Source: an uncultured bacterium (lineage in GTDB: Bacteria; Bipolaricaulota; Bipolaricaulia; UBA7950; UBA9294). From it: a stretch of DNA of 47,031 bases. Position 1 is the first letter of the stretch. The number at the start of each line of letters is the position of its first letter. The position numbers and the translations under genes were made by a program. Positions 15,569 through 26,935 of this stretch are shown here, one piece after another. The notes below the pieces were generated by a model, which was given only the letters and a program-made list of their open reading frames with translations, was not told where the DNA came from and ran no database searches. The stretch covers positions 1 through 47,031 of the forward strand of contig CAJVYM010000006.1 in the NCBI GenBank assembly GCA_913009415.1, written 5' to 3'.

Positions 15569-15597
15569 TTGACAACCTAGCTCGTGCGTGCTATAAA
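15569..15597 (+). promoter_or_regulatory. Strong sigma70-type promoter of the rex-Mbx operon
   Basis: Perfect -35 TTGACA (15569-15574), 17-base spacer, -10 TATAAA (15592-15597). Transcription should start at about 15604, exactly where the Rex operator begins. Confidence 0.8.
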
Positions 15598-15603
15598 TCG
15601 GAT

Positions 15604-15621
15604 TTGTGATCGTGAGCACAA
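15604..15621. promoter_or_regulatory. Rex operator
   Basis: TTGTGATCGTGAGCACAA matches the Rex consensus TTGTGA-N6-TCACAA with a single mismatch in the half-sites (GCACAA). It covers the predicted start site, so bound Rex should block transcription. It lies 17 bases before the rex ATG, giving autoregulation and control of all downstream genes on the same transcript. Confidence 0.78.
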
Positions 15622-15638: not shown

Positions 15639-16265
15639 ATGGTAAAACACATGGATGTGCCGGAAGAGACGATGCAGCGTATGCTTGCTTACCTGCGTGA
15701 GCTCGACTGCTTATGGAACGAAGGCAAGGAGAAGTTCTCTTCGCAAAGCTTGGCCAAGGCACTCCATATGAACCCAGCTCAGATCCGCAAGGATTTCTCG
15801 TACTTTGGCGAGTTCGGAACACGTGGTGTTGGCTACGCTACCAAGCAGTTAATACAAGAATTGCGAGCGATACTAAACCTCGATCGCACTTGGCGATTGG
15901 CGCTGATCGGTGTTGGGAACATCGGCTCAGCGCTTCTACGCAATCCCGAGCTAAAGCGACAGGGTTTCGAGATCGTGCTGGCGTTCGATAAGGATCCTCG
16001 CCGGATCGGAAATAAGATTGGGCCGTTGACAGTGGAGGATGTGGTAAATGTCAAGAGGCGGATCCGCGAGGAAAAGGTGCAGCTAGCGATCATCGCCACG
16101 CCCGTTGAATGCGCGCAGGAGACGGCTGACAAGCTGATTCAAGCAGATATAAAGGGATTCCTCTGCTTCGCCCCCTGCCACCTGAGCATCCCGGACGAAA
16201 TAAGGATCGTACCGATCGATATTCCCATGGCGTTGGGAAAGCTGGTCTACCATATGGAGGTGTAG
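15639..16265 (+). CDS. rex: Redox-sensing transcriptional repressor Rex
   Basis: About 208 residues from ATG 15639, with AAAGGA seven bases upstream; the upstream GTG (15606) falls inside the operator. N-terminal winged helix (about 18-75, with SSQSLAKALHMNPAQIRKDF and GEFGTRGVGY) and a Rossmann domain (GVGNIGSALLRNPEL, FDKDPRRIG). Rex represses when NADH is low and releases DNA when NADH binds. It is the first gene of the operon; its stop region contains the SD (GGAGGTG) of the next gene. Confidence 0.95.
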   Translation: MVKHMDVPEETMQRMLAYLRELDCLWNEGKEKFSSQSLAKALHMNPAQIRKDFSYFGEFGTRGVGYATKQLIQELRAILNLDRTWRLALIGVGNIGSALLRNPELKRQGFEIVLAFDKDPRRIGNKIGPLTVEDVVNVKRRIREEKVQLAIIATPVECAQETADKLIQADIKGFLCFAPCHLSIPDEIRIVPIDIPMALGKLVYHMEV

Positions 16266-16267
16266 CG

Positions 16268-16780
16268 TTGGACGCACAGGGTGAACATCGAACTCAGCGT
16301 TACTTGACCGCGTTTGTCGTCTCGTACGGGGTGTGGCTTGCCCTTGTCGGGACACTCAACTGGCAGGAGCTTCTCATGGGGGGAGTGCTGTCGGCGATCG
16401 TCGCCGCGTTCGGTTGGCGTTACTTCTCGCAGGTGGGATTCTCCCGCTTGAGCGTGAAGAAACTTCTGTATTTGATCGTCTACATCCCGGTCTTCTTCTG
16501 GGCGATGATCAAGGCGAACTTTGACGTCGCCTACCGCGTGATCCATCCGCGCATGCCAATCCACCCGGGTGTCGTCCTCATAAAGACTGATTTGAAGTCG
16601 GACAGCGGGAAGCTTGCGTTGGCCAACTCGATCACACTCACTCCGGGGACGCTGACCATGGATGTTAAAGGGAACAGCATGCTCGTCCATTGGATCAACG
16701 TTAAGAGCACTGATACGGAGGAAGCCACAAGGATTATCAGCAAGCGATTCGAACGGTACCTGAAGGTGATCTTCTCATGA
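16268..16780 (+). CDS. mrpE: Mrp/Mbx complex subunit, MrpE type (MbxA-like)
   Basis: 170 residues with two or three N-terminal membrane helices, followed by the MrpE signature LTPGTLTMDVKGNSMLVHWI. Starts at TTG 16268, about six bases after GGAGGT inside the end of rex. MrpE is a small structural subunit of the Na+/H+ antiporter module. First structural gene of the Mbx-like complex; overlaps the next gene by ATGA. Confidence 0.88.
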   Translation: MDAQGEHRTQRYLTAFVVSYGVWLALVGTLNWQELLMGGVLSAIVAAFGWRYFSQVGFSRLSVKKLLYLIVYIPVFFWAMIKANFDVAYRVIHPRMPIHPGVVLIKTDLKSDSGKLALANSITLTPGTLTMDVKGNSMLVHWINVKSTDTEEATRIISKRFERYLKVIFS

Positions 16781-17034
16781 CAGCGCTATGGTTATTGTTC
16801 CTGTCGTTTAGCGCCGCGGGGATTGCTCTCTGCCTGGTGCGTGCGGCAGCAGGGCCCACTACCCCCGATCGGGTTGTGGGAGTGGATGGTATGGCTACCA
16901 TCAGTATCGCGCTGATGGTTCTCCTTGCTTCATTCTTCGATCGTCAAGTCTACCTGGACGTGGCGCTGGTGTACGCGGTCCTCGGGTTTATCGGGGTCCT
17001 CGCGGTGGCCCGCTACATGGAACGGGGTGTGTGA
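16777..17034 (+). CDS. mrpF: Mrp/Mbx subunit, MrpF type (MbxB-like)
   Basis: 85 residues, three predicted membrane helices. Contains RAAAGPTTPDRVVGVDGMATI and the ending DVALVYAVLGFIGVLAVARYMERG, both typical of MrpF. Part of the ion-translocating module; overlaps both neighbours. Confidence 0.9.
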   Translation: MTALWLLFLSFSAAGIALCLVRAAAGPTTPDRVVGVDGMATISIALMVLLASFFDRQVYLDVALVYAVLGFIGVLAVARYMERGV

Positions 17035-17381
17035 TGCGCATCTTCGGCGAGATCTTGATTGGAATCGGAACGGCGTTCCTCTTCCTGGGAGGGCTGGGGA
17101 TTTTTCGCCTTCCCGACGTGTACAACCGCCTGCAGGCGGGAACGAAGTGCACAACGCTGGGAGCGTTTTCCACCATCCTGGGTGTGGGATTCGTCCATCC
17201 GAACTGGATGCTGAAGGCGATTGTCATCGCGGTGTTCATCCTGCTCACCAACCCGATCAGCGCACATGCCCTGGCACGGGCAAGTTACAAGAGCGGGGTA
17301 AAGCTGTGGGACAAGAGCGTGGTCGATCGCTGTAAGGAGTTCGAGGAGTGCCAGGAGATAGGAAAGGAGGAGGAAGGATGA
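17034..17381 (+). CDS. mrpG: Mrp/Mbx subunit, MrpG type (MbxC-like)
   Basis: About 115 residues, three membrane helices. Contains GGLGIFRLPDVYNRLQAGTK, the MrpG signature, and TNPISAHALARASY. Starts at ATG 17034, which overlaps the mrpF stop; GTG 17031 is an alternative. A charged tail follows the last helix. Confidence 0.9.
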   Translation: MRIFGEILIGIGTAFLFLGGLGIFRLPDVYNRLQAGTKCTTLGAFSTILGVGFVHPNWMLKAIVIAVFILLTNPISAHALARASYKSGVKLWDKSVVDRCKEFEECQEIGKEEEG

Positions 17382-17614
17382 TCTACATCGCCATTCTCAC
17401 TGTAGCGATGCTCATCGCCGGGGTAGGGGCCTATTTCTTCCGCGACTTAATCGCCGCGGTCGTCGCCTGCGCCGCGGTGAGCCTGATCGCTTCTGTCCTG
17501 TTTTACCTGTTGCAGGCACCGGACGTGGCGATGGCGGAGGCGGCGATCGGTGCCGGGCTGACGACAGCCATCTTCGTGATCGCCATCCGCAAGACCGGGA
17601 GGTATGAGAAATGA
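17378..17614 (+). CDS. Mbx subunit, MbhD/MbxD-like (DUF4040, MrpA C-terminal part)
   Basis: 78 residues, three membrane helices. LLQAPDVAMAEAAIGAGLTTAIFV is the MbhD/MrpA-type motif (APDVAxTEAxxG). Start ATG 17378 after a long purine SD (GGAGGAGGAAGG), overlapping the mrpG stop. An upstream in-frame ATG (17348) lies inside mrpG and is rejected. Confidence 0.87.
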   Translation: MIYIAILTVAMLIAGVGAYFFRDLIAAVVACAAVSLIASVLFYLLQAPDVAMAEAAIGAGLTTAIFVIAIRKTGRYEK

Positions 17615-18330
17615 GGGCATTCGTAAGCTTCAGCGTCCTTGCCCTGATCGTTGTCGGGCTGGCGCTTTCCCTCTCTCACATCCCCTTCGGCAACAGCACG
17701 GCTAACACGGACCGGATGCATGTAGCCAAGTATTACCTAAATAACGGGGTAAAAGACACCGGAGCGCCGAACCTGGTTACCGCGGTGGTCCTGGATTACC
17801 GTGCGTTGGATACACTAGGAGAGGTCACGGTCCTGTTCATCGCCTCGCTCGGGCTGGGTATATTCCTCTCCTGGCCGAAGAAAGAAGGCTCAGAAGACGA
17901 TGACAAGCGCGGGCTGCCACCGGCGAGCTTGATCGTCCGTCGCGGATCGCAGTTCCTCTTCCCGCTCATTCTTTTGTTCGGGGGATACATCTTTCTCCAT
18001 GGGCATCTCACCCCTGGCGGAGGGTTCCAGGGCGGCTCGGTAATCGCCTCGGCGTTCCTGTTAATGTTCCTCGGCAACACCGGGTATCGCCTGCGTCAGA
18101 AAACACTTGCAGTGACGGAGAGCCTGGCCGGGATCACGTTCGTCATCATCGGCCTGATCGGGCTGGGGGTCGGCGGATACTTCCTCAACAACTTCCTTCC
18201 CAAGGGGAGCGTCTTCGCCCTGTTCAGTGCCGGTGTTATCCCCATCCTGTACGCGGCGATCGGACTTAAAGTAGGCGCGGAACTGGCGGGAATCGTGGCT
18301 AACATGTTTGGAAGCGGGAGCGAAGGATGA
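17611..18330 (+). CDS. Mbx subunit fusing MbhE-like and MrpB-like parts (MbxF-like)
   Basis: 239 residues. The first half has a helix, then GAPNLVTAVVLDYRALDTLGEV, as in MbhE/MrpA C-terminal segments. The second half has HGHLTPGGGFQGGSVIASAFL, the MrpB motif. In hydrogenase-type clusters E and F are separate; the fusion matches what I recall of the archaeal Mbx cluster. It belongs to the Na+/H+ translocation module. Confidence 0.87.
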   Translation: MRAFVSFSVLALIVVGLALSLSHIPFGNSTANTDRMHVAKYYLNNGVKDTGAPNLVTAVVLDYRALDTLGEVTVLFIASLGLGIFLSWPKKEGSEDDDKRGLPPASLIVRRGSQFLFPLILLFGGYIFLHGHLTPGGGFQGGSVIASAFLLMFLGNTGYRLRQKTLAVTESLAGITFVIIGLIGLGVGGYFLNNFLPKGSVFALFSAGVIPILYAAIGLKVGAELAGIVANMFGSGSEG

Positions 18331-18683
18331 CAATCGGAAATCCAATGATGTACGTTGGGGCAGTCGGACTGATCATGATCGGTCTGTTCACTGTCCTTAG
18401 TAAGCGAAACCTGATCAAGATCATTGTTGGGTTGACGCTTCTGGATACGGGAGTGAACGTTCTGCTGATCGCGATCGGTTACATCCATAACCGGACAGCG
18501 CCTATCGTCACCCGGACGTACACCGATCCAACCAAGATGGTCGACCCGATCCCTCAGGCGCTGGTCCTCACGGCGATCGTTATCGGCCTCGGGGTGACCG
18601 CCCTCGCCCTCGCCCTGGCGATCAGGGTGTACGGGCACTACAAGACGCTCGATACGCGCAAGATTAGGGGGCTTAAATGGTAG
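18327..18683 (+). CDS. mrpC: Mrp/Mbx subunit, MrpC/NuoK type (MbxG-like)
   Basis: 118 residues, three membrane helices, with the NuoK/MrpC features KIIVGLTLLDTGVNVLLIAIG and DPIPQALVLTAIVIGLGVTA. Membrane-embedded channel-forming subunit. ATGA overlap with the previous gene; slight overlap with the next. Confidence 0.9.
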   Translation: MTIGNPMMYVGAVGLIMIGLFTVLSKRNLIKIIVGLTLLDTGVNVLLIAIGYIHNRTAPIVTRTYTDPTKMVDPIPQALVLTAIVIGLGVTALALALAIRVYGHYKTLDTRKIRGLKW

Positions 18684-20152
18684 CCACGTTACTCATCGCT
18701 CTTCCGTTTCTCGGCGCGTTTCTGATCCCTCTCGTTGCCCTGGCCAACAAGAAAGCCTCCCACTACATACCGGCACTGGTCATGCTCAGCAATCTTGGGA
18801 TCTCGCTCGCCCTCCTGCCGCAGGTGATGCGTGCGCCGATCGTGATCTCTCTAAGCGGGTGGACGGCGCCCATCGCCATCAACTTCGTGGTGGGGCCGCT
18901 CGGTTTAGGACTGGCGATTCTCATCTCTCTTGTTGGCTTCCTCGTCTCTGTCTACGGAGTGGGCTACATTCATGAGGAGCCGAAGGAGAAGTATCACATG
19001 CTCGTCCTTACCCTCCTCACCGGGGCGACGGGGATGGTCCTTACGGGCGATATCTTCAACCTGTTTGTCTTCTTCGAGATTCTCAGCCTTTCCTCGTACG
19101 CCTTAACAGGATACAACCGTGACCGTGGTGGGACGGAGGCGGCGATCAAGTACCTCATTCAAGGATCGATCGGCTCGGCGTTCATCCTGATCGGTATCGC
19201 TCTGCTGTACGGAACCACGGGCACACTGAACATGGCCGACATCGCTGCGCATGTCGCTGGAGTGGATCCGACACTGTTGTTCATGGCCATGTCTCTTCTC
19301 ATCGTTGGGTTCGGGGTGGAGGCGGCGATCTTCCCGCTCAACGCCTGGCTTCCCGACGCGCACTCTTCGGCGCCATCGTCGGTGAGCGCGATCCTCTCGG
19401 GGATAGCAATCGAGACCGGAGCATACGCCGTGGCACGGATCGTGTACACCGTCTTCGATGGACACGGGATCATGCTCGTTCTCGCTATTCTAGGAGTAGT
19501 AACACTCCTACTCGGAGAGATGTCGGCTTTCAGACAGAAGGATGACATAAAGCGGCTGCTTGCCTATTCAAGTATCGGGCAGATGGGATTGATCATGCTC
19601 GCCTTCGGGATCGCTAGCGATGCCGGTGTGTTCGCGGCGCTCTTTCAGCTCGTCAGTCACACCCTGGCTAAGGCCCTGTTGTTCCTTGCTAGCGGCTACA
19701 TCATCTACCGCGTGGGATCGAAGAAACTCTCGGCCCTCGCTGGCCTGGGGCGGAAGATGCCGTTCACCGGAGCGATGATCTCGGTCGCTGTCCTGTCGCT
19801 CATCGGCGTACCCCCGTTTGCCGGGTTCATGAGCAAGTTCTCCATCGTGCGGGCGGCGCTAGCACAGCACAGCGCCTCCTACACCGGGCTCATCGTTCTC
19901 GTGCTGTTGGCGACGGTGATCGAGGTGGGATACTTCATGAAGTTACTACAGATCATGTTCTTCACGCAAGCCGAGGGGGAGGAATCGGTGAAGGAGCTGC
20001 CGCTGTCGGCGTTGATTCCGATCACCATCCTCGCGGCGCTGATCATCATTATCGGGGTTTACCCGCACATGATCTCCGGGCTACTGCAACAAGCGGCAAG
20101 CGGGCTGGTGGAGAGATCGGCTTATATCCAAACAGTGTTGGGAGCGCAATAA
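18677..20152 (+). CDS. mrpD: Antiporter-like subunit, MrpD/NuoN type (MbxH-like, first copy)
   Basis: 491 residues with about 14 membrane helices. Contains the ion-channel motifs of the family: the glutamate in FVFFEILSLSSYAL, a lysine after the middle helix break (KYLIQGSIGSAF), and SIGQMGLIMLAFG. It should pump Na+ or H+. A second, longer relative follows directly. Confidence 0.9.
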   Translation: MVATLLIALPFLGAFLIPLVALANKKASHYIPALVMLSNLGISLALLPQVMRAPIVISLSGWTAPIAINFVVGPLGLGLAILISLVGFLVSVYGVGYIHEEPKEKYHMLVLTLLTGATGMVLTGDIFNLFVFFEILSLSSYALTGYNRDRGGTEAAIKYLIQGSIGSAFILIGIALLYGTTGTLNMADIAAHVAGVDPTLLFMAMSLLIVGFGVEAAIFPLNAWLPDAHSSAPSSVSAILSGIAIETGAYAVARIVYTVFDGHGIMLVLAILGVVTLLLGEMSAFRQKDDIKRLLAYSSIGQMGLIMLAFGIASDAGVFAALFQLVSHTLAKALLFLASGYIIYRVGSKKLSALAGLGRKMPFTGAMISVAVLSLIGVPPFAGFMSKFSIVRAALAQHSASYTGLIVLVLLATVIEVGYFMKLLQIMFFTQAEGEESVKELPLSALIPITILAALIIIIGVYPHMISGLLQQAASGLVERSAYIQTVLGAQ

Positions 20153-20153
20153 C

Positions 20154-22010
20154 ATGATCCTAGAAATACTTGTTATCATCGGACTCGCCGCCCCATTGTT
20201 GGGGGTCGCCATTGGCTACCGCAGGCCGCGGGTGCGAAGTGTCTATTCGCTTCTAGTGGCGCTCTTCCCGCTCGTTGCTCTCTCTACCATGTATGGGCGA
20301 ACGATCGCCGTTAACTACGCGTACCTTCCCTTCTTGGGAATCGACCTGTCGCTTCGCCTGACACCTCTTTCCTGGTTCTTCGGGATTGCTATGACCGCGA
20401 TCGGCCTGTTGGCGCTCGTCTATTCGTTTGCCTATATGAAGGACCGCAAGCGGCTCGATCTATTCTACTTCCTGTTCCTGCTCGTGAACGGGGGGATGCT
20501 CGGGGTGGTGCTGAGTGGCGATATGTTCACGTTCTACATTCTGTGGGAGATCATGAGCGTGGCTACGTTCATGTCGATCAGCTTCAACGGAAAAGGGGCG
20601 CTCTCAGCGGGGATCAAGTACATTCTGTTCTCGATCGCCGGGTCATCGGCGATGCTGCTCGCCATCGTCAGCCTGTACGTGAACTTCGGGACGGTCGATA
20701 TCATCGCCCTAACCACGGCCATGTCCGGTGCGACCGTCGGCTACGCGGTCTTTATCCTGATGATGTTCTCTCTTGCCTTCGGGATCAAGAACGCTCTTCT
20801 GCCGCTTCATCCGTGGCTTCCAGCGGCGTACGCGGAGTCACCGACCCCGTTCACCGCGGTCCTGGGAGGGATGCTCACCCGCTTGGGGGTGTACGGGTTC
20901 CTGCTAGTGATGTATGTGATGATCGGCATGCCGCTCGTCCATCGGATGAGCTACGGTCTGGTGAACTATCAAATAATTCTCGCCTGGATCGCCGGGATCA
21001 CGATCCTGTTTGGGGTCTTCGTTGCGGTGTTCAAGGACGATGCCAAGCAGGTCCTCGCTTGGTCGTCGATCGGGCACGGCGGGTACATGATCCTCGGGCT
21101 GGCTCTCTTCTCGACATTGGGCCTGGCCGGGGGGATATTCCACATCCTCAACTACGCGATGTGCGTCTCCCTCCTCTTCCTCGCGGTGGGGGCGGTGGAG
21201 TACCGCACCGGAACGCGCGACTTGACGAAGCTAGGCGGGCTGCACAAGCGGATGCCGGTGACGTTTGTCTCCGCGATGATCGCCGTCTTTGGGATGATTG
21301 GAGTTCCGTTGACCAACGGGTTTGTCTCCAAGTGGCTGATCTACAAGGGATTGATCCTCGGCGGGCACCCGTTCCTCACGTTCACCGCGTTGATCGGTAC
21401 CTGGGGGACTATCCTCTACGGCTACAAGCTGATTCACAACACGTTCCTGGGCCGCTTGCCGCAGCGCTATGCGCAAGTTAAGGAAGTTCCGTGGCTGATG
21501 CAGGCTCCGATGATCACTCTGTCGAGTCTGATCGTGCTGTTCGGTATCCTCCCGGGAATTCCGCTCAAGGCGGTCGCCCTGATCGAGAGTTCGTTCGGCG
21601 TGAAGCCGATCGTAACCGGGCTGGTGGGAATGCCGCAGGGAGTGGGGGAGATGAACCTGCTAAACATCTTCGGCGGGATCGTCGCGGCTACGCTTGTTAT
21701 GTACGCCCTGTTTTCCCTCACCGCGCGTCCGCGCCGAGCCGGCCCACAGGACACGTACACCGCTGGTGGGCCGACTCCATCTGATAACTACAACTATGCT
21801 TCACGCTTCTACGATCCAGCAGAGCATGTGCTGAAGCCCTACCTGCACGATTGGGCGGATTCGTTCTACGCCTGGGTGGGAAGACAGAGCACGGCGTTGT
21901 TTGAGAGTGCGCGCAAGGTCTATTCGGGGAATATCAACACCTACGCGTTATGGATCGTGATCCTGCTCGGGGTGTTTGCAACGATGAATCTACTGGGGTG
22001 GAGGCCATGA
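20154..22010 (+). CDS. Antiporter-like subunit, second MrpD/NuoL-type copy (MbxH'-like)
   Basis: 618 residues. The core (about 1-510) repeats the MrpD/NuoL plan, with FTFYILWEIMSVATFMSISF, GIKYILFSIAG and SSIGHGGYMILGLAL. The extra C-terminal 100 residues, from the Arg/Pro-rich RPRRAGPQDTYTAGG to a final helix NTYALWIVILLGVFATMNLLG, form an amphipathic arm plus anchor, like the lateral helix of NuoL-type subunits. Two adjacent copies distinguish Mbx/Mbs clusters from the single-copy Mbh hydrogenase clusters. Confidence 0.87.
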   Translation: MILEILVIIGLAAPLLGVAIGYRRPRVRSVYSLLVALFPLVALSTMYGRTIAVNYAYLPFLGIDLSLRLTPLSWFFGIAMTAIGLLALVYSFAYMKDRKRLDLFYFLFLLVNGGMLGVVLSGDMFTFYILWEIMSVATFMSISFNGKGALSAGIKYILFSIAGSSAMLLAIVSLYVNFGTVDIIALTTAMSGATVGYAVFILMMFSLAFGIKNALLPLHPWLPAAYAESPTPFTAVLGGMLTRLGVYGFLLVMYVMIGMPLVHRMSYGLVNYQIILAWIAGITILFGVFVAVFKDDAKQVLAWSSIGHGGYMILGLALFSTLGLAGGIFHILNYAMCVSLLFLAVGAVEYRTGTRDLTKLGGLHKRMPVTFVSAMIAVFGMIGVPLTNGFVSKWLIYKGLILGGHPFLTFTALIGTWGTILYGYKLIHNTFLGRLPQRYAQVKEVPWLMQAPMITLSSLIVLFGILPGIPLKAVALIESSFGVKPIVTGLVGMPQGVGEMNLLNIFGGIVAATLVMYALFSLTARPRRAGPQDTYTAGGPTPSDNYNYASRFYDPAEHVLKPYLHDWADSFYAWVGRQSTALFESARKVYSGNINTYALWIVILLGVFATMNLLGWRP

Positions 22011-22915
22011 GCATAGGACTACAGATTGCGTGGATGATAAGCTTGCCGATCGTGACGATACTGCTCGTTGCAGTGCTGTTCACTGGAATATCTCTCAAGG
22101 TAACCGCGCGCATCGACCGCCGCTACGGGCCGCCGATCTACCAGCCGGTGATCGACCTCGTAAAATTGGTCAGCCTGAAATCAAACGTGTCACACGGGCT
22201 GATATTCAATTGGGGACTTTTGGTCGCAATCGGTGGATCGACCGCGGCACTGTTGATGGTGCCGATGGGGGGAATACACATCTTCTCCGGATCGGGCGAC
22301 CTGTTGGTATTGATCTATCTGATGCTCGTCTCCTCCCTTGGGGTTGGCCTTTCCGTCGGGGCATCGGAGAACCCGAATGCATCGATGGCCGCATCACGCA
22401 GCCTGATGCTCGGTCTGGGGTACGAGGTTCCGTTCCTGCTGATACTGCTGGCGATGATGACTTATTATCATACGACATCGCTCATGGATCTCGTCATGCT
22501 TCAGCGAGCAGGGGGAATGCTGGGTGTACTGCGTTTCCCGCTCTCGGCGATCGCCGGGCTTCTTATCATGCCGGCGATGCAGGGGGTGCGCCCGTTCGAC
22601 ATCGTGACCGCACCACAGGAGGTGGCCTCCGGGACGATGGTCGAGCTTGGGGGAAAGTTCCTCGCCCTGTCGGTGATCGAGCATTCGCTGCACGCGATGG
22701 TCGTTCTTTCACTTTACGTGGACATATTCTTCGGTGGAGCGACCAACCTGGGGATCTTTTTCCTCAAGGTGACGGGGCTGTTCCTAGCTGGTGTACTGAT
22801 AAACGCGGTCTATCCCCGCTTCAGGGTGGAGCAGGCCCTACGCTACTGCTGGCGCTGGCCAACGTGGTTTGCCCTTGCTGGGCTGATCATGGCCATGGTG
22901 ATAAAGGGAGCGTAA
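22007..22915 (+). CDS. mbxM: Membrane-arm linker subunit, NuoH/MbhM type (MbxM-like)
   Basis: 302 residues from ATG 22007, which overlaps the previous stop; the longer upstream start lies inside the previous gene. About eight helices. ARIDRRYGPPIYQPVIDLVKL matches the NuoH/MbhM cytoplasmic loop, and GVRPFDIVTAPQEVASGTMVE matches the conserved quinone- or cofactor-side loop. It joins the peripheral arm to the antiporter-like arm. Confidence 0.92.
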   Translation: MSIGLQIAWMISLPIVTILLVAVLFTGISLKVTARIDRRYGPPIYQPVIDLVKLVSLKSNVSHGLIFNWGLLVAIGGSTAALLMVPMGGIHIFSGSGDLLVLIYLMLVSSLGVGLSVGASENPNASMAASRSLMLGLGYEVPFLLILLAMMTYYHTTSLMDLVMLQRAGGMLGVLRFPLSAIAGLLIMPAMQGVRPFDIVTAPQEVASGTMVELGGKFLALSVIEHSLHAMVVLSLYVDIFFGGATNLGIFFLKVTGLFLAGVLINAVYPRFRVEQALRYCWRWPTWFALAGLIMAMVIKGA

Positions 22916-22920
22916 GAAAA

Positions 22921-23484
22921 ATGGAAAAATACAAACGCGGTAAGATGTGGGCGACGCACCCGTACAAGTGGGGGCAGAAGTACTCCATATGGCCGATCCA
23001 CTTTTGCACCGGGTGCGGATCGATCGAGATGCCGCCAACGATGCTCGCCCCGTATGATGCGAGCCGGTTCGGGATGGGACCAATGGCCAGCCCGCGCCAG
23101 GCAAATCTGTTGATGATCACCGGGTATCTGACGCCCAAGACATTGAAGTACGTCATCCGTACGTACGAGCAGATGCTGACCCCACGCTACCTGGTCTCGT
23201 TCGGTTCCTGTCCGATCGATGGCGGAATGTATTACACCTCCTACAACACGATCAACCACCTCAAGTGGTACCTCCCGGTCGATGTGTGGATCGCGGGATG
23301 CATGCCCCGGCCGGAGGCGTTCCTCATGGGAATGAACAAGCTGATGGAGGAGATCGAGAAGGGGACTGCCGATGGCTACCTGCGCTACGAACGGGACCGC
23401 GAGTACTACCGCGAGCACCAAGAACGCGCGTTGGGGAGCAATTTCTTGGAAGACCTGAAACAAGTGGAGTGGATCACGGAATGA
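22921..23484 (+). CDS. mbxJ: Small Fe-S subunit, NuoB/MbhJ type (MbxJ-like)
   Basis: 187 residues from ATG 22921; the long upstream extension in the same frame is inside mbxM. Ligands for the proximal [4Fe-4S] cluster are visible: Cys29 and Cys32 (HFCTGCGSIEM), Cys97 (SFGSCPIDGG) and Cys127 (IAGCMPRPEA). The CxxC pair is the hydrogenase/Mbx form rather than the CC pair of true complex I. It passes electrons between the ferredoxin-type subunit and the large subunit site. Confidence 0.92.
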   Translation: MEKYKRGKMWATHPYKWGQKYSIWPIHFCTGCGSIEMPPTMLAPYDASRFGMGPMASPRQANLLMITGYLTPKTLKYVIRTYEQMLTPRYLVSFGSCPIDGGMYYTSYNTINHLKWYLPVDVWIAGCMPRPEAFLMGMNKLMEEIEKGTADGYLRYERDREYYREHQERALGSNFLEDLKQVEWITE

Positions 23485-23948
23485 AAGAAGAGGCTCTAAA
23501 AGAAAAACTGGAGGCTCGCTTCGCCGGAGTACGTGCTGATGTCAAGCGTCAACAGCGGGTGGTTGCCTTTTTGCCACTGGATAGCGTGAGTACGGTCCTG
23601 ATGTGGCTTAAGGACGAAGGATATCATCAGCTCACGCTTATCACATGCGTAGACTGGATCGAAGAGGGGCAGTTCGAGCTCGTGTACCATGTCGCCTCGC
23701 ACGCCGACGGAATCCACGTCATGCTCAAGGCCCGGGTCGATCGGGAGAACCCGGTTGCATTGAGCATCACCTCGCTCTACGAGAACGCGCAACCCTACGA
23801 GCGAGAGATTCACGAGTTCTTCGGGGTCGACTTCACCGGGAACGGTAACCTGACTCCTCTCTACCTAGATAACTGGGATGATATTCCCCCGATGCGCCGT
23901 GATTTTGATACGTTAGCCTATTCAGAGAGGAAGTATGACTATGAGTGA
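23481..23948 (+). CDS. mbxK: NuoC/MbhK-type subunit (MbxK-like)
   Basis: 155 residues from ATG 23481 (ATGA overlap with the previous gene). Contains TCVDWIEEGQFELVYHVAS and the NuoC signature YEREIHEFFGVDFTGN, and ends PMRRDFDT. Structural subunit of the peripheral arm. It is separate from the NuoD-type gene. Confidence 0.9.
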   Translation: MKEEALKEKLEARFAGVRADVKRQQRVVAFLPLDSVSTVLMWLKDEGYHQLTLITCVDWIEEGQFELVYHVASHADGIHVMLKARVDRENPVALSITSLYENAQPYEREIHEFFGVDFTGNGNLTPLYLDNWDDIPPMRRDFDTLAYSERKYDYE

Positions 23949-25065
23949 CGAACAAATCGCCAGCAGGGAAAGGGAAGTGGATCTCCTTTTTGGACCACAG
24001 CACCCGGGGGTATCGGGAAACTTCAACATCACCGTTACCGTGGAAGGGGAGACGATCCGCCACATCGAGATGAATCTCGGCTTTCTTCATCGTGGTTTCG
24101 AGAAGATGTTGGAGAACGTCGGTTATCTGCAGGGATTCCCGTTTGTCTGTCGGATGAACGTGATGGATCCAGACCCCAACGAACAGGTGTATGCCATGGC
24201 GATCGAGGAGCTGGCCGGGATCGAAGTCCCCCCACGGGCGCACTACATTCGCTCGTTGATTCTAGAGATGTCACGCCTGTCCACCCACCTTCTATGGTTA
24301 AACGGGATGGCCGGAGCGATGGGGTTCTACACGATCAACCACTGGGCGATGCTCGCCCGCGATGAGATCCTCGACATGTTCTCCCAGATTGCCGGGGCGC
24401 GCGTTTATCACATCTACATCCTCCCTGGCGGAGTGCGTCGTGATGTCCCCGAGGGCTTCGCCGGAAAGATGACCGCTTTCCTCGACGACTTTGAGAAGAC
24501 GCTGCACGATTTTGATGCGGTGATGTTCAACAACCGTGTCTTCCGCAAGCGCACCGATGGAGTTGGAATACTCACGCGTGAGGATGCTCTGCGTTGGGGA
24601 GTAACCGGAGCAAACCTGCGTGCAACAGGCATCGCCCGCGACGTGAGGGTGGAGGAGCCGTACGCGGCCTACGCCGAGCTGGACTTCGAGATTCCCACAC
24701 GAACCGAATGTGATTCGTACGCGCGGTCGATGGTGGTTCGCGCTGAAGTGGACCAGAGCGTATCCATCATCCGCCAGGTCCTGAAGAAGATACCGGCGGG
24801 ATCGGCGTGGAACCGGACGCCCAATCCGTTCAAGTGGAGAATACCAAGGGGTGAGGCGTATGCGCGCGTGGAGTCAGGACGAGGGGAGCTCGGAATGTAC
24901 GCCGTCTCCGACGGATCAAACAAGCTTCGTCGGTTGTCCTATCGCGGCCCATCGCTCCCGCACGGGCTTGTCGTGTTGCCAAAGCTGCTTGTCGGAATGA
25001 GCGTGCCGGACATCGCACACATGGCATCGAGCTTGAATATCTCGGTCCCGGAAATAGACCGCTAG
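23941..25065 (+). CDS. mbxL: Large catalytic-type subunit, NuoD/MbhL family, without Ni-Fe cysteines (MbxL-like)
   Basis: About 374 residues from ATG 23941, seven bases after GAGAGGAAG; ATG 23935 is too close to that SD. LLFGPQHPGVSGNFNI and EMNLGFLHRGFEK are typical N-terminal motifs. Where nickel-iron hydrogenases have an RxCxxC pair the sequence is FVCRMNVMDPDPNEQ (only Cys70). Where they have DPCxxC near the end it reads LLVGMSVPDIAHMASS, with no cysteine. Only one other Cys (TEC) occurs. It therefore cannot build a Ni-Fe site and is not a hydrogenase; Mbx/Mbs-type sulfur or ferredoxin redox activity is the best guess. Confidence 0.9.
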   Translation: MSDEQIASREREVDLLFGPQHPGVSGNFNITVTVEGETIRHIEMNLGFLHRGFEKMLENVGYLQGFPFVCRMNVMDPDPNEQVYAMAIEELAGIEVPPRAHYIRSLILEMSRLSTHLLWLNGMAGAMGFYTINHWAMLARDEILDMFSQIAGARVYHIYILPGGVRRDVPEGFAGKMTAFLDDFEKTLHDFDAVMFNNRVFRKRTDGVGILTREDALRWGVTGANLRATGIARDVRVEEPYAAYAELDFEIPTRTECDSYARSMVVRAEVDQSVSIIRQVLKKIPAGSAWNRTPNPFKWRIPRGEAYARVESGRGELGMYAVSDGSNKLRRLSYRGPSLPHGLVVLPKLLVGMSVPDIAHMASSLNISVPEIDR

Positions 25066-25075
25066 AGGAGGGATG

Positions 25076-26935
25076 ATGAGTAAAGGAAGCATGCTGGGGT
25101 CATTTGTCGGGCTTAAGTACCTGTTTGCGAAGCCGCGCACTGTGGCCTATCCCTACGAGAAGCGGGAGATCGCCGAGCGTTACCGCGGGTTTCACAAGAA
25201 TGACCTTGAGGAGTGCATCGGCTGCGGAAACTGTGCCGATATCTGCCCGTGCGCGGCAATCACCATGGTCAAGGTGCCCGGGATCGAGGCCGATCCGAAG
25301 AAAGGGTCGACCAATGAACGGCCGCAGATCAACTACGGTCGCTGTACGTACTGTGGGCTATGCGTGGACGTCTGTCCGACCGGAAGCTTGAGCCTGTCGC
25401 GGGACTTCATCCACAACGACGATAACCCTGACACCTTCGTTGCCCTGGCACGCGATGAGAAGGTGGCGAGCGAGGTGTTCATCGATGGTTTGAGCGACTT
25501 TGACGCCAGCCTCGATCACCGCAAGAAGGATGACAAAGGATACGCCAGCGACCTTGCTTTCTGTCTTGCCGACTTCGACGGTCATGCCAAGGAGATGGAG
25601 ATCCTCCCTGCGGAGGAGCGGTTAGGTTCGTTCCTGGAGATGGTGCGCGGGTTCACTCGCGAGCAGGCGATCACCGAGGCGTCGCGCTGCTTCGAGTGTG
25701 AGGTGTGCGAAGAGGCCTGTCCGGCGCACATGAACGTCGCCGACTACATCCGCGACATCTGGAGCGAGGACCACGATCAGGCGGCGCGCGACATCTACAA
25801 GACCAACCCCCTTCCTGAGGTGTGCGGCCGCGTGTGCACGCACGACTGCGAAACGGCGTGCGCCCTGTCCCATCGCGGGGATGCTGTCTCCATCCGCTGG
25901 CTCAAGCGCTATGCCATGGATCAGATACCGCGCGAGGACTACAAACGCATTCTTGGGACCCAGATCGTCAAGTCGAACGGCAAGAAGGTAGCGATCGTCG
26001 GTGCCGGTCCATCCGGCCTCTCCGCCGCTTACTACCTGGCGCTGATGGGTTACAAGGTGATCGTATTCGAGGAGAAGGATAAGCCCGGAGGGATGATGCG
26101 CTACGGGATTCCCGAGTACCGCATGCCCTACGACGCGCTTGCTAAGGACATCGACTACATCGAATCGGTAGGGGTGGAGATCCGTTGCAACACCCAAGTG
26201 GGAAAAGACGTCACTCTGGAAGACCTGCAGCGCGATTACGGAGCTGTCTTCGTCGGAATCGGCCTGCAGGGAGGGCGGAGCACGCGCGTTGAGGGAACGG
26301 ATCATCCCCGTGTCTTTCAGGCGATCGACCTCCTGCGTCGCATCACCCGCGGCGAGGAGATCGAGCTTACCGAGAAGATCGTGGTCATCGGTGGAGGGAA
26401 CGTCGCCATGGACATCTCGCGCAGCATCGCTCGCCTGCAGAAGGCGCGCTACGGCGTGGTTGATCTGACGACCACCTGCCTGGAGACCGAAGACATCATG
26501 CCCGCCGACGTGGAAGAGATCGAGGAGGCACGCGAGGAAGCGATCGTGATCATCCCCGGGCGCTCTCCGCAGAAGATAGAAATCGTGGACGGTGAGATAA
26601 CCGGATTGCACACGGTTCAGTGCGTATCAGTATTCGATGAAGAACATCGCTTCAACCCGCAGGTAAACGAGGAGGACAAGCTGTTCATCCCCGGAACGAT
26701 GATCGTCGAGGCGATCGGTCAGAGCGCTGACGACTCGCTGATCACCGATGAGATCAAACAGACCCTGGAGTACGCTGGCAGACGGATCAAGGTGAACGAA
26801 TACAACCAGAGCAGCCTTCCGTGGCTGTACTTTGGCGGAGACTTCGTCAAGGGGCCGGACGTGATCACCGGGATTTCCACCGGCCATCAAGCGGCACGCG
26901 GAATCGACGCCTACTTGAACGAAGTGGACGAGTAG
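25076..26935 (+). CDS. Fusion of NuoI/MbxN-type ferredoxin subunit with GltD/NfnB-type NAD(P)H flavoprotein
   Basis: 619 residues. Residues 1-115: MbxN/NuoI-like protein with two [4Fe-4S] motifs, Cys47-50-53-57 and Cys90-93-96-100. Residues about 180-290: the GltD-type N-terminal Fe-S region, Cys205-208-211-215 and Cys250-254-258-262. Residues 305-619: two dinucleotide folds, the FAD site GAGPSGLSAAYYL (309) with GGMMRYGIPEYRMP and the NAD(P)H site GGGNVAMDISRSIARLQ (439), then YFGGDFVKGPDVITG. This joins the electron-entry subunit of the membrane complex to a pyridine-nucleotide oxidoreductase. ATG 25076 is four bases after AGGAGG; ATG 25073 is too close. Last gene of the operon. Confidence 0.92.
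   Translation: MSKGSMLGSFVGLKYLFAKPRTVAYPYEKREIAERYRGFHKNDLEECIGCGNCADICPCAAITMVKVPGIEADPKKGSTNERPQINYGRCTYCGLCVDVCPTGSLSLSRDFIHNDDNPDTFVALARDEKVASEVFIDGLSDFDASLDHRKKDDKGYASDLAFCLADFDGHAKEMEILPAEERLGSFLEMVRGFTREQAITEASRCFECEVCEEACPAHMNVADYIRDIWSEDHDQAARDIYKTNPLPEVCGRVCTHDCETACALSHRGDAVSIRWLKRYAMDQIPREDYKRILGTQIVKSNGKKVAIVGAGPSGLSAAYYLALMGYKVIVFEEKDKPGGMMRYGIPEYRMPYDALAKDIDYIESVGVEIRCNTQVGKDVTLEDLQRDYGAVFVGIGLQGGRSTRVEGTDHPRVFQAIDLLRRITRGEEIELTEKIVVIGGGNVAMDISRSIARLQKARYGVVDLTTTCLETEDIMPADVEEIEEAREEAIVIIPGRSPQKIEIVDGEITGLHTVQCVSVFDEEHRFNPQVNEEDKLFIPGTMIVEAIGQSADDSLITDEIKQTLEYAGRRIKVNEYNQSSLPWLYFGGDFVKGPDVITGISTGHQAARGIDAYLNEVDE

Follow-up and report, generated by a model that had tools for sequence, protein, structure and literature searches.

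Results

The NuoI–GltD Fusion Closes a 13-Gene Operon

The window analyzed here, a 47,031-nucleotide stretch of contig CAJVYM010000006.1 from an uncultured bacterium of the Bipolaricaulota, contains an uninterrupted open reading frame (ORF) for a protein of 620 amino acids (positions 25073–26935; this and all other features of the window described here lie on the forward strand) in which a NuoI-type ferredoxin is fused to a GltD-type flavoprotein. Its start codon, at 25073, lies one codon before position 25076 given in the initial annotation, and the gene is the last of 13 genes of the same direction, from 16268 to 26935, several of which overlap by a few bases. The N-terminal, NuoI-type domain for two [4Fe-4S] clusters (residues 1–112; 25073–25408) is followed by a GltD-type Fe-S domain with eight cysteines and Lys278 (residues 190–290; 25640–25942), an FAD-binding GAGPSG motif (residues 310–315; 26000–26017), a pyridine-nucleotide-binding GGGNVAMD motif (residues 440–447; 26390–26413), and Cys469-Leu470-Glu471 at the place where an NADP-phosphate-binding Tyr-Arg-Arg would stand (26477–26485). 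Pfam places Fer4_7 at residues 48–104, Fer4_20 at 186–286, and Pyr_redox_2 at 304–597; only Fer4-type, Fer4_20, and Pyr_redox-type domains are present, with no NuoG/FdhF-like domain as in StnC. The two halves on one chain, the two motifs, and the two sets of eight cysteines had all been read correctly in the initial annotation. In the numbering of the 620-residue protein, the cysteines are C48, C51, C54, C58, C91, C94, C97, and C101 in the ferredoxin domain and C206, C209, C212, C216, C251, C255, C259, and C263 in the GltD region, and all 16, together with Lys278, are invariant in the 60 fusion sequences aligned out of a larger set. An AlphaFold2 model of the protein (mean predicted local distance difference test score, 89.8; predicted template modeling score, 0.85) retrieved NfnL as the best Foldseek match (5jca_L, 5jfc_L), followed by Nfn-ABC and StnC.

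The preceding genes encode the MbxA-type MrpE (16268–16780), MrpF (16777–17034), MrpG (17031–17381), a DUF4040/MbhD-type membrane subunit (17378–17614), MrpB-type (17611–18330) and MrpC-type (18327–18683) subunits, an MrpD/NuoN-type pump subunit (the MbsH counterpart; 18677–20152), a NuoM/L-type pump subunit (MbsH'; 20154–22010), a NuoH-type membrane anchor (MbsM; 22007–22915; best NCBIfam NuoH model, 100 bits), the NuoB-type subunit with its proximal [4Fe-4S] cluster at C35, C100, and C130 (MbsJ; 22912–23484), a NuoC-type subunit (23481–23948, scanned within a longer ORF), and the NuoD-type subunit (MbsL; 23935–25065). No NuoEFG input module occurs among the 13 genes; outside the operon, the genome has three PF01512 genes, one of them at the place of RnfC. 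The gene order is conserved in the related genomes G001, G002, and G023, of which G002 belongs to the window's genus, and in G017, G031, and G045 the operon part is visible as far as the contigs reach. The NuoM-type subunit is only 73%–74% identical between the window and G001 or G002, as against 92%–94% for its neighbors MrpD and NuoH, possibly reflecting replacement or recombination of this single subunit.

A rex Gene and an Operator-Like Site Precede the Operon

Two bases ahead of the first operon gene ends rex (15639–16265), encoding a redox-sensing (NADH/NAD+) transcriptional repressor that matches NCBIfam Rex models at 238 bits (cut-off 126) and 228 bits (cut-off 217); it stands ahead of the operon in G001, G002, and G023 as well. 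It is preceded by a promoter-like TTGACA-N17-TATAAA (15569–15597) and a Rex-operator-like palindrome, TTGTGATCGTGAGCACAA (15604–15621), with three mismatches to the Rex consensus. The −35/−10 pair with its 17-nucleotide spacing is the same in all four related genomes (the window, G001, G002, and G023), in which TTGACA-N17-TATAA and then TTGTGANNGTGNNCACAA are kept and the other upstream DNA differs by eye; a generic promoter scanner that accepts only −10 elements ending in T left the pair out. Since G002 has a stop codon in frame through the operator-like site, rex starts after it. The window holds two Rex-like sites versus 1.1 expected by chance, and no site matched a consensus containing TTGTTAA.

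The Fusion Is Widespread and Intact

The initial annotation had asked whether a stop might be missed between residues 115 and 180 and whether relatives might always be two genes. In the Bipolaricaulota copies that stretch has no stop and can be aligned, and fused copies are widespread for this complex. Six more Bipolaricaulota genomes carry the fusion, five of them intact and one cut by a contig end. As an unbiased check on frequency, a search of 100 Bipolaricaulota genomes for NuoD gave 22 matches at 1e-60, seven of them at 50% identity or more, and all seven of these genomes carry the fusion, one cut at a contig end. A search of the contigs of 84,980 species genomes with residues 1–246 of seven fusions as query yielded at least 592 stretches and 185 relatives, of which the best 80 are cited here by L numbers. 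All 80 are fused, a figure that is not a rate, because the query spans both domains and only the best 80 were kept. Among them are Bipolaricaulota, WOR-3, Cloacimonadota, Neomarinimicrobiota, Bacteroidota, Spirochaetota, Thermotogota, Proteobacteria, and other phyla. The ORF measures 560–700 amino acids in 71 loci, a longer stop-to-stop frame occurs in three (L031, L033, and L042), and a contig end cuts the gene in five (L056, L072, L079, L089, and L095). With these full-length frames and the open linker in relatives, a missed stop or a chimeric assembly is excluded. The lone interrupted fusion (L030:745–1623) loses its frame after about residue 250, which might represent a broken gene, a sequencing error, or a true split.

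A nuoD gene lies upstream of the fusion on the same strand in 76 of the 80 loci. None was found in the upstream stretch of L039, L050, L053, and L077; for the first three (Omnitrophota, Parabeggiatoa, and Thiomargarita), split operons or a stand-alone enzyme are possible. Six pattern matches on viral contigs included no relative, and all 329 matching plasmid records fall below 60% identity; the five plasmid matches listed stand at 29%–30%, and two of them are named, as GltD and AegA.

Rex-like sites occur in four of the 52 loci with upstream sequence (0.99 expected): L021 (the G002 locus) and L026, the latter from another phylum, both with rex; L086, without it; and L069, where its place is uncertain. 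In L061 there is a rex gene and no Rex-like site. The site in L086 is a perfect palindrome, TTGTGAAATATATCACAA, 382 bases ahead of mrpE, with no rex found beside it. As to other neighbors, two Bacteroidota have a dihydroorotate-dehydrogenase-like gene after the fusion (L062:12023–13006 and L096:11794–12771), and in Thiothrix caldifontis a carbohydrate (glycogen-type) phosphorylase gene adjoins the operon (L090:12315–14840), which might link it to the use of carbon reserves.

The Core Complex Resembles MBX/MBS

Among chains of solved structure, NuoB is closest to MbsJ (6u8y_J, 213 bits; runner-up, 111) and NuoD to MbsL (6u8y_L, 319 bits; runner-up, 236). Pyrococcus furiosus MBS is also the best solved match for MrpD (6u8y_H, 352 bits) and NuoM (6u8y_X, 248 bits), and the best NuoI-type match for the NuoI part of the fusion. 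As in MBX/MBS, an Mrp-type module and NuoB/C/D/H/I-type subunits share one operon. The published account of the MBS structure describes quinone residues as absent, one iron of the proximal cluster as lacking a cysteine, C25 of MbsJ as a non-ligand, and the proximal cluster itself as the proposed polysulfide-reducing catalyst (PMC7684303). The CTGCG of the window's NuoB aligns to MbsJ without a gap and with the spacing of the three-cysteine cluster; the three ligand cysteines are present in 64 of 64 NuoB sequences of the fusion family, and the C25 position is Gly in 34 of these and Cys in 30. That the spare cysteine is gone from about half of the family while the ligands do not vary fits a three-cysteine cluster. 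In NuoD of the window, Ser and Val occupy the positions of the complex-I residues His38 and Tyr87; all 72 NuoD sequences of the family have Val at the Tyr87 position, and one (L059) keeps His38. NuoB of the window lacks the adjacent CC pair of cluster N2.

By these sequence criteria the partner complex of the fusion is of the MBX/MBS type and not complex I, which was rejected for the missing His38/Tyr87 and adjacent cysteine pair; the operon also lacks NuoEFG. A group 4 [NiFe] hydrogenase was likewise rejected, as NuoD lacks the two CxxC pairs and shows VCRMNV and LNISVPEIDR at its motifs. The link between pyridine nucleotides and the membrane arm of complex I drawn in the initial annotation accordingly holds for an NAD(P)H site on an ion-pump complex without NuoEF, with the core reassigned to MBX/MBS.

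The Flavoprotein Half and Its Nucleotide

In the transhydrogenase subunit StnC, Lys170 is reported to ligate the FAD-proximal cluster where NfnB has Glu, and the FAD is described as non-bifurcating and feeding a chain of complex-I-type clusters (PMC10482914). Lys278 of the fusion occupies the position of StnC Lys170 and replaces the NfnB Glu in all 60 aligned sequences, suggesting a StnC-like half in which Lys278 serves as a ligand of the FAD-proximal cluster. The initial assignment of this half as GltD/NfnB-type is right as to GltD, but it stands closer to StnC than to the bifurcating NfnB. Likewise, the cysteines for the four [4Fe-4S] clusters expected earlier are in place, but the fourth cluster is probably held by three cysteines and Lys278, so that not all eight GltD-region cysteines need be ligands; with the NuoB cluster added, the electron path likely comprises five.

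The phosphate-site motif divides 78 fusion sequences, the window's included, into 24 with YRR and 54 with an LE-like motif (ALE in 21, SLE in 18, CLE in 11, and ALQ, AID, VLE, and AME in one each). Escherichia coli GltD, which uses NADPH, has YRR, and PreT of the same organism, annotated as NAD-dependent, has ARE. The NfnB-type protein of the window's own host keeps both the Glu ligand and YRR. YRR accommodates the NADP phosphate in NfnB, and according to the kinetics presented for DsrL, the YRR-containing DsrL-2 works only with NADP(H), whereas the non-YRR DsrL-1 enzymes use or prefer NAD(H) (PMC7596348). With CLE in place of YRR, and with the DsrL kinetics and PreT tying YRR loss to NAD(H), the predicted nucleotide of the window's fusion is NADH, not NADPH.

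Exchange of the Nucleotide Module

The two classes were assigned by motif before any tree was built. All trees are quick and unrooted, with six outgroup rows attaching at long branches; the fusion tree excludes ORFs below 560 amino acids, the NuoD and part trees include only rows with a NuoD of 330 amino acids, and long-branch rows were excluded from the second NuoD tree (L059) and the part trees (L059 and L039). In the fusion-protein tree the YRR and LE-like classes form one split with support 100, and the GltD half alone again gives one split, which also stands after removal of residues 436–499 (support 99). The NuoD tree requires five to six class changes, at least four of them forced by well-supported branches, and rejects a single class clade (approximately unbiased test, p about 1e-44). 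The NuoI half sides with NuoD (five changes; one split rejected, p 0.0007), and the deep split found for NuoD is in turn rejected by the GltD half (p 4e-5). The nucleotide module has, on these phylogenies, been exchanged within the fused gene, behind NuoI; because the GltD half conflicts with both the NuoI half and NuoD, the join between the halves is the point of recombination or re-fusion. A domain swap and repeated fusion fit the conflict alike. A proteobacterial clade of 24 rows (support 100) is entirely of the LE class.

Separate GltD Genes in Complex-I Operons

The possibility, raised at the outset, that split genes exist elsewhere proved partly correct: a separate GltD-type gene is present in five of the 100 Bipolaricaulota genomes, on the same contig as the NuoD match in G043, G052, G092, and G093, but these genes head true complex-I operons. 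In G043 (L133:7000–12759) and G052 (L134:902–8340) the genes run gltD (in one or two copies), a 119–120-amino-acid frame at the nuoA place, nuoB, the nuoC place, nuoD, nuoH, and nuoI, with NuoH named by Pfam and the others by alignment or place. Their complex-I cores retain the CC pair as well as His and Tyr of the quinone site, and the separate GltD proteins carry YRR and an Arg in place of the Lys or Glu ligand. GltD modules have thus joined true complex I as well, as separate, YRR-class proteins, and an NADPH-fed complex I is possible in G043 and G052, where NuoEFG is absent from the stretch read.

Discussion

We propose the following model for the function of the fusion and its operon. The fusion would serve as the electron-input subunit of a 13-subunit, ion-pumping complex of the MBX/MBS type. 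NADH bound at the GltD-type domain would pass a hydride to a non-bifurcating FAD, from which single electrons would reach the proximal cluster of NuoB by way of, in turn, the [4Fe-4S] cluster with the Lys ligand, the outer one of GltD, and the two of NuoI. The NuoB cluster, with three cysteine ligands and one open iron, would form the floor of a hydrophobic chamber in which sulfane sulfur, as polysulfide or another disulfide, is cleaved, and NuoH, NuoM, and the Mrp-type subunits would couple this redox step to the movement of H+ or Na+. Rex usually releases its target genes at high NADH, which fits the disposal of NADH by the complex; in the lineage of the window, Rex may thus turn the operon on at a high NADH/NAD+ ratio, making the complex an energy-saving outlet for surplus NADH. 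We regard an ion-pumping NADH:sulfane-sulfur oxidoreductase as the reading that best accommodates the input module, the core, and the regulation, and give it about an even chance of being correct.

Several observations weigh against this proposal, the foremost being its driving force. Polysulfide has a potential of about −260 mV. For NADH in cells about −280 mV is given (PMC9304861), so that the transfer leaves little for pumping, and MBS itself uses ferredoxin as donor; the small gap leaves room for a disulfide of higher potential, or for reverse flow in sulfur oxidizers. The chamber of the window's NuoD is more derived than that of MBS, since even the relict NiFe cysteines that MBS keeps are lost (C85 to Asn, C385 to Ser); the C85 column is Cys in 57 of 72 family members, and C85A/C385A MBS is reported to stay active (PMC7684303). 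In both pump subunits the TM8 lysine aligned from MBS is changed, K250 of MbsH to Glu246 in MrpD and K248 of MbsH' to arginine in NuoM, and these changes may bear on which ion is moved. The rex gene adjoins the operon in few other loci, the link being specific to the lineage and not family-wide. No sulfur-specific gene was found beside the operon among 10 proteins in the flanks of seven loci, and our literature search, for which subscription papers were mostly out of reach, found no biochemistry for any LE-class member and nothing directly on the function of the NuoI–GltD fusion.

The same small potential gap would make the reaction reversible, and the complex could instead work backward, the ion gradient driving electrons uphill to NAD+, with sulfide, persulfide, or thiols as their source. 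Such a mode would suit LE-class members in sulfur-oxidizing Proteobacteria, which need NADH: the all-LE proteobacterial clade consists largely of known or likely sulfur oxidizers, and in the DsrL study the NAD(H) class marks sulfur oxidizers, whereas reduction requires the NADP(H) class (PMC7596348). The genome of the window, however, is anaerobe-like, with RnfC (544 bits) and an NfnB-type protein in an assembly 91% complete, and Rex control points to NADH disposal. In an Endoriftia co-expression paper, moreover, Mrp-Mbx is called putative and its direction is left open (PMC11636981). We consider reverse flow unlikely.

Slightly less probable is a complex whose main donor is ferredoxin, as in archaeal MBS, with the GltD domain as a side outlet or inlet so that electrons are split between NAD(P)+ and sulfur. 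P. furiosus MBS is reported to be fed through MbsN (PMC7684303), the NuoI-type clusters are kept in the fusion, and the authors working on Thermotoga maritima treat bacterial MBX as ferredoxin-fed (PMC9431562). However, the attached GltD domain should occupy or crowd the ferredoxin site, the host's Rnf already serves the transfer from ferredoxin to NAD+, and the fusion gene stays downstream of nuoD in nearly all loci.

A variant of complex I reducing quinone is improbable, although NuoB, C, D, H, and I and the pump subunits are complex-I homologues. The CC pair and the two quinone-site residues, His and Tyr, are missing here and kept in the true complex-I cores of related genomes, and no menaquinone pathway was detected in the host: the 91%-complete genome yielded no futalosine-route family and, for MenD, only 67 bits versus a cut-off of 244, which makes a quinone acceptor unlikely. 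Most improbable of all is an NfnB-like bifurcation of NAD(P)H electrons between ferredoxin and the complex, for which the NfnB fold and an invariant Arg at position 350 speak, but against which stand Lys278 in place of Glu, the non-bifurcating StnC with the same change, and the lack of an NfnA-type partner among the identified operon genes.

What would an NADH-fed complex of this kind mean more broadly? We raise, tentatively and with a good deal more doubt than the assignment itself, the idea that the complex-I superfamily has a further branch, widespread and as yet undescribed, with a direct and reversible coupling of NAD(H) to sulfane-sulfur chemistry and ion pumping and with a plug-in nucleotide module whose choice of nucleotide sets the direction. 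NADH- and NADPH-type GltD modules would then have been swapped for one another repeatedly behind one and the same NuoI domain, the NADH type acting as an NADH outlet in fermenters and as a gradient-driven NAD+ reducer in sulfur oxidizers, and evolution would set direction through nucleotide choice, as has been proposed for DsrL. Complex I is thought to have gained its NADH-oxidizing module late, and which donors feed forms without NuoEFG is treated as an open question (PMC11238625). The fusion represents a second, independent route to a pyridine-nucleotide site on complex-I-type machinery, of the MBX type and in many phyla, and it brings with it a residue rule for NADH or NADPH and evidence of module exchange. 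For bacterial MBX, at present taken to be fed by ferredoxin (PMC9431562), different energetics would be predicted accordingly.

Comparison with Known Systems

As an architecture the fusion is not new, being already catalogued in NCBIfam as the "putative oxidoreductase" PRK13984 (NF010590). Profile positions 7–608 of 611 align with fusion residues 3–617, indicating homology over the full length, but the score of 825 bits falls 121 below the cut-off of 946 (passed by one of 14 control genomes), so that the window's copy is not filed as an equivalog, and the model gives no function. NfnB-like subunits in bacterial MBX may be mentioned in reviews by Schut, Boyd, Peters, and Adams (2013, 2016). E. 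coli AegA and YgfT also join an N-terminal ferredoxin domain to GltD and align with residues 46–617; the fusion scores 253 bits against their cut-off of 1003, and AegA and YgfT are not known to belong to a membrane-arm operon.

For the core, P. furiosus MBS/MBX (6u8y) offers the nearest solved subunits, the three-cysteine proximal cluster, the same lack of quinone residues, and what we take to be the same gene order. It differs in that MbsN lacks a flavoprotein domain and is fed by ferredoxin, and in its relict C85 and C385. T. maritima MBX is likewise a 13-subunit operon, responsive to sulfur, with mbxA reported to be up 4.36-fold with S0 (PMC9431562). The Thermotogota copies that we found carry the fusion (L064 and L065) and, in contrast to the window's, belong to the YRR class with predicted use of NADPH, an assignment drawn from these two loci.

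For the input module, NfnB (NfnL) shares the flavoprotein fold, but it has a Glu ligand and YRR, bifurcates electrons, pairs with NfnA, and is soluble. DsrL-1 and DsrL-2 are GltD-type proteins with two extra ferredoxin clusters and show the same division into YRR and non-YRR forms, although their ferredoxin domain is C-terminal, not N-terminal as in the fusion, and their partner is DsrAB instead of a membrane pump. StnC of the Sporomusa transhydrogenase (8oh5) likewise has a GltD-like module fused to a complex-I-type Fe-S domain, with a Lys ligand and a linear electron path; it differs in being part of a separate transhydrogenase, in its fusion to a NuoG-like domain, and in its use of NADPH.

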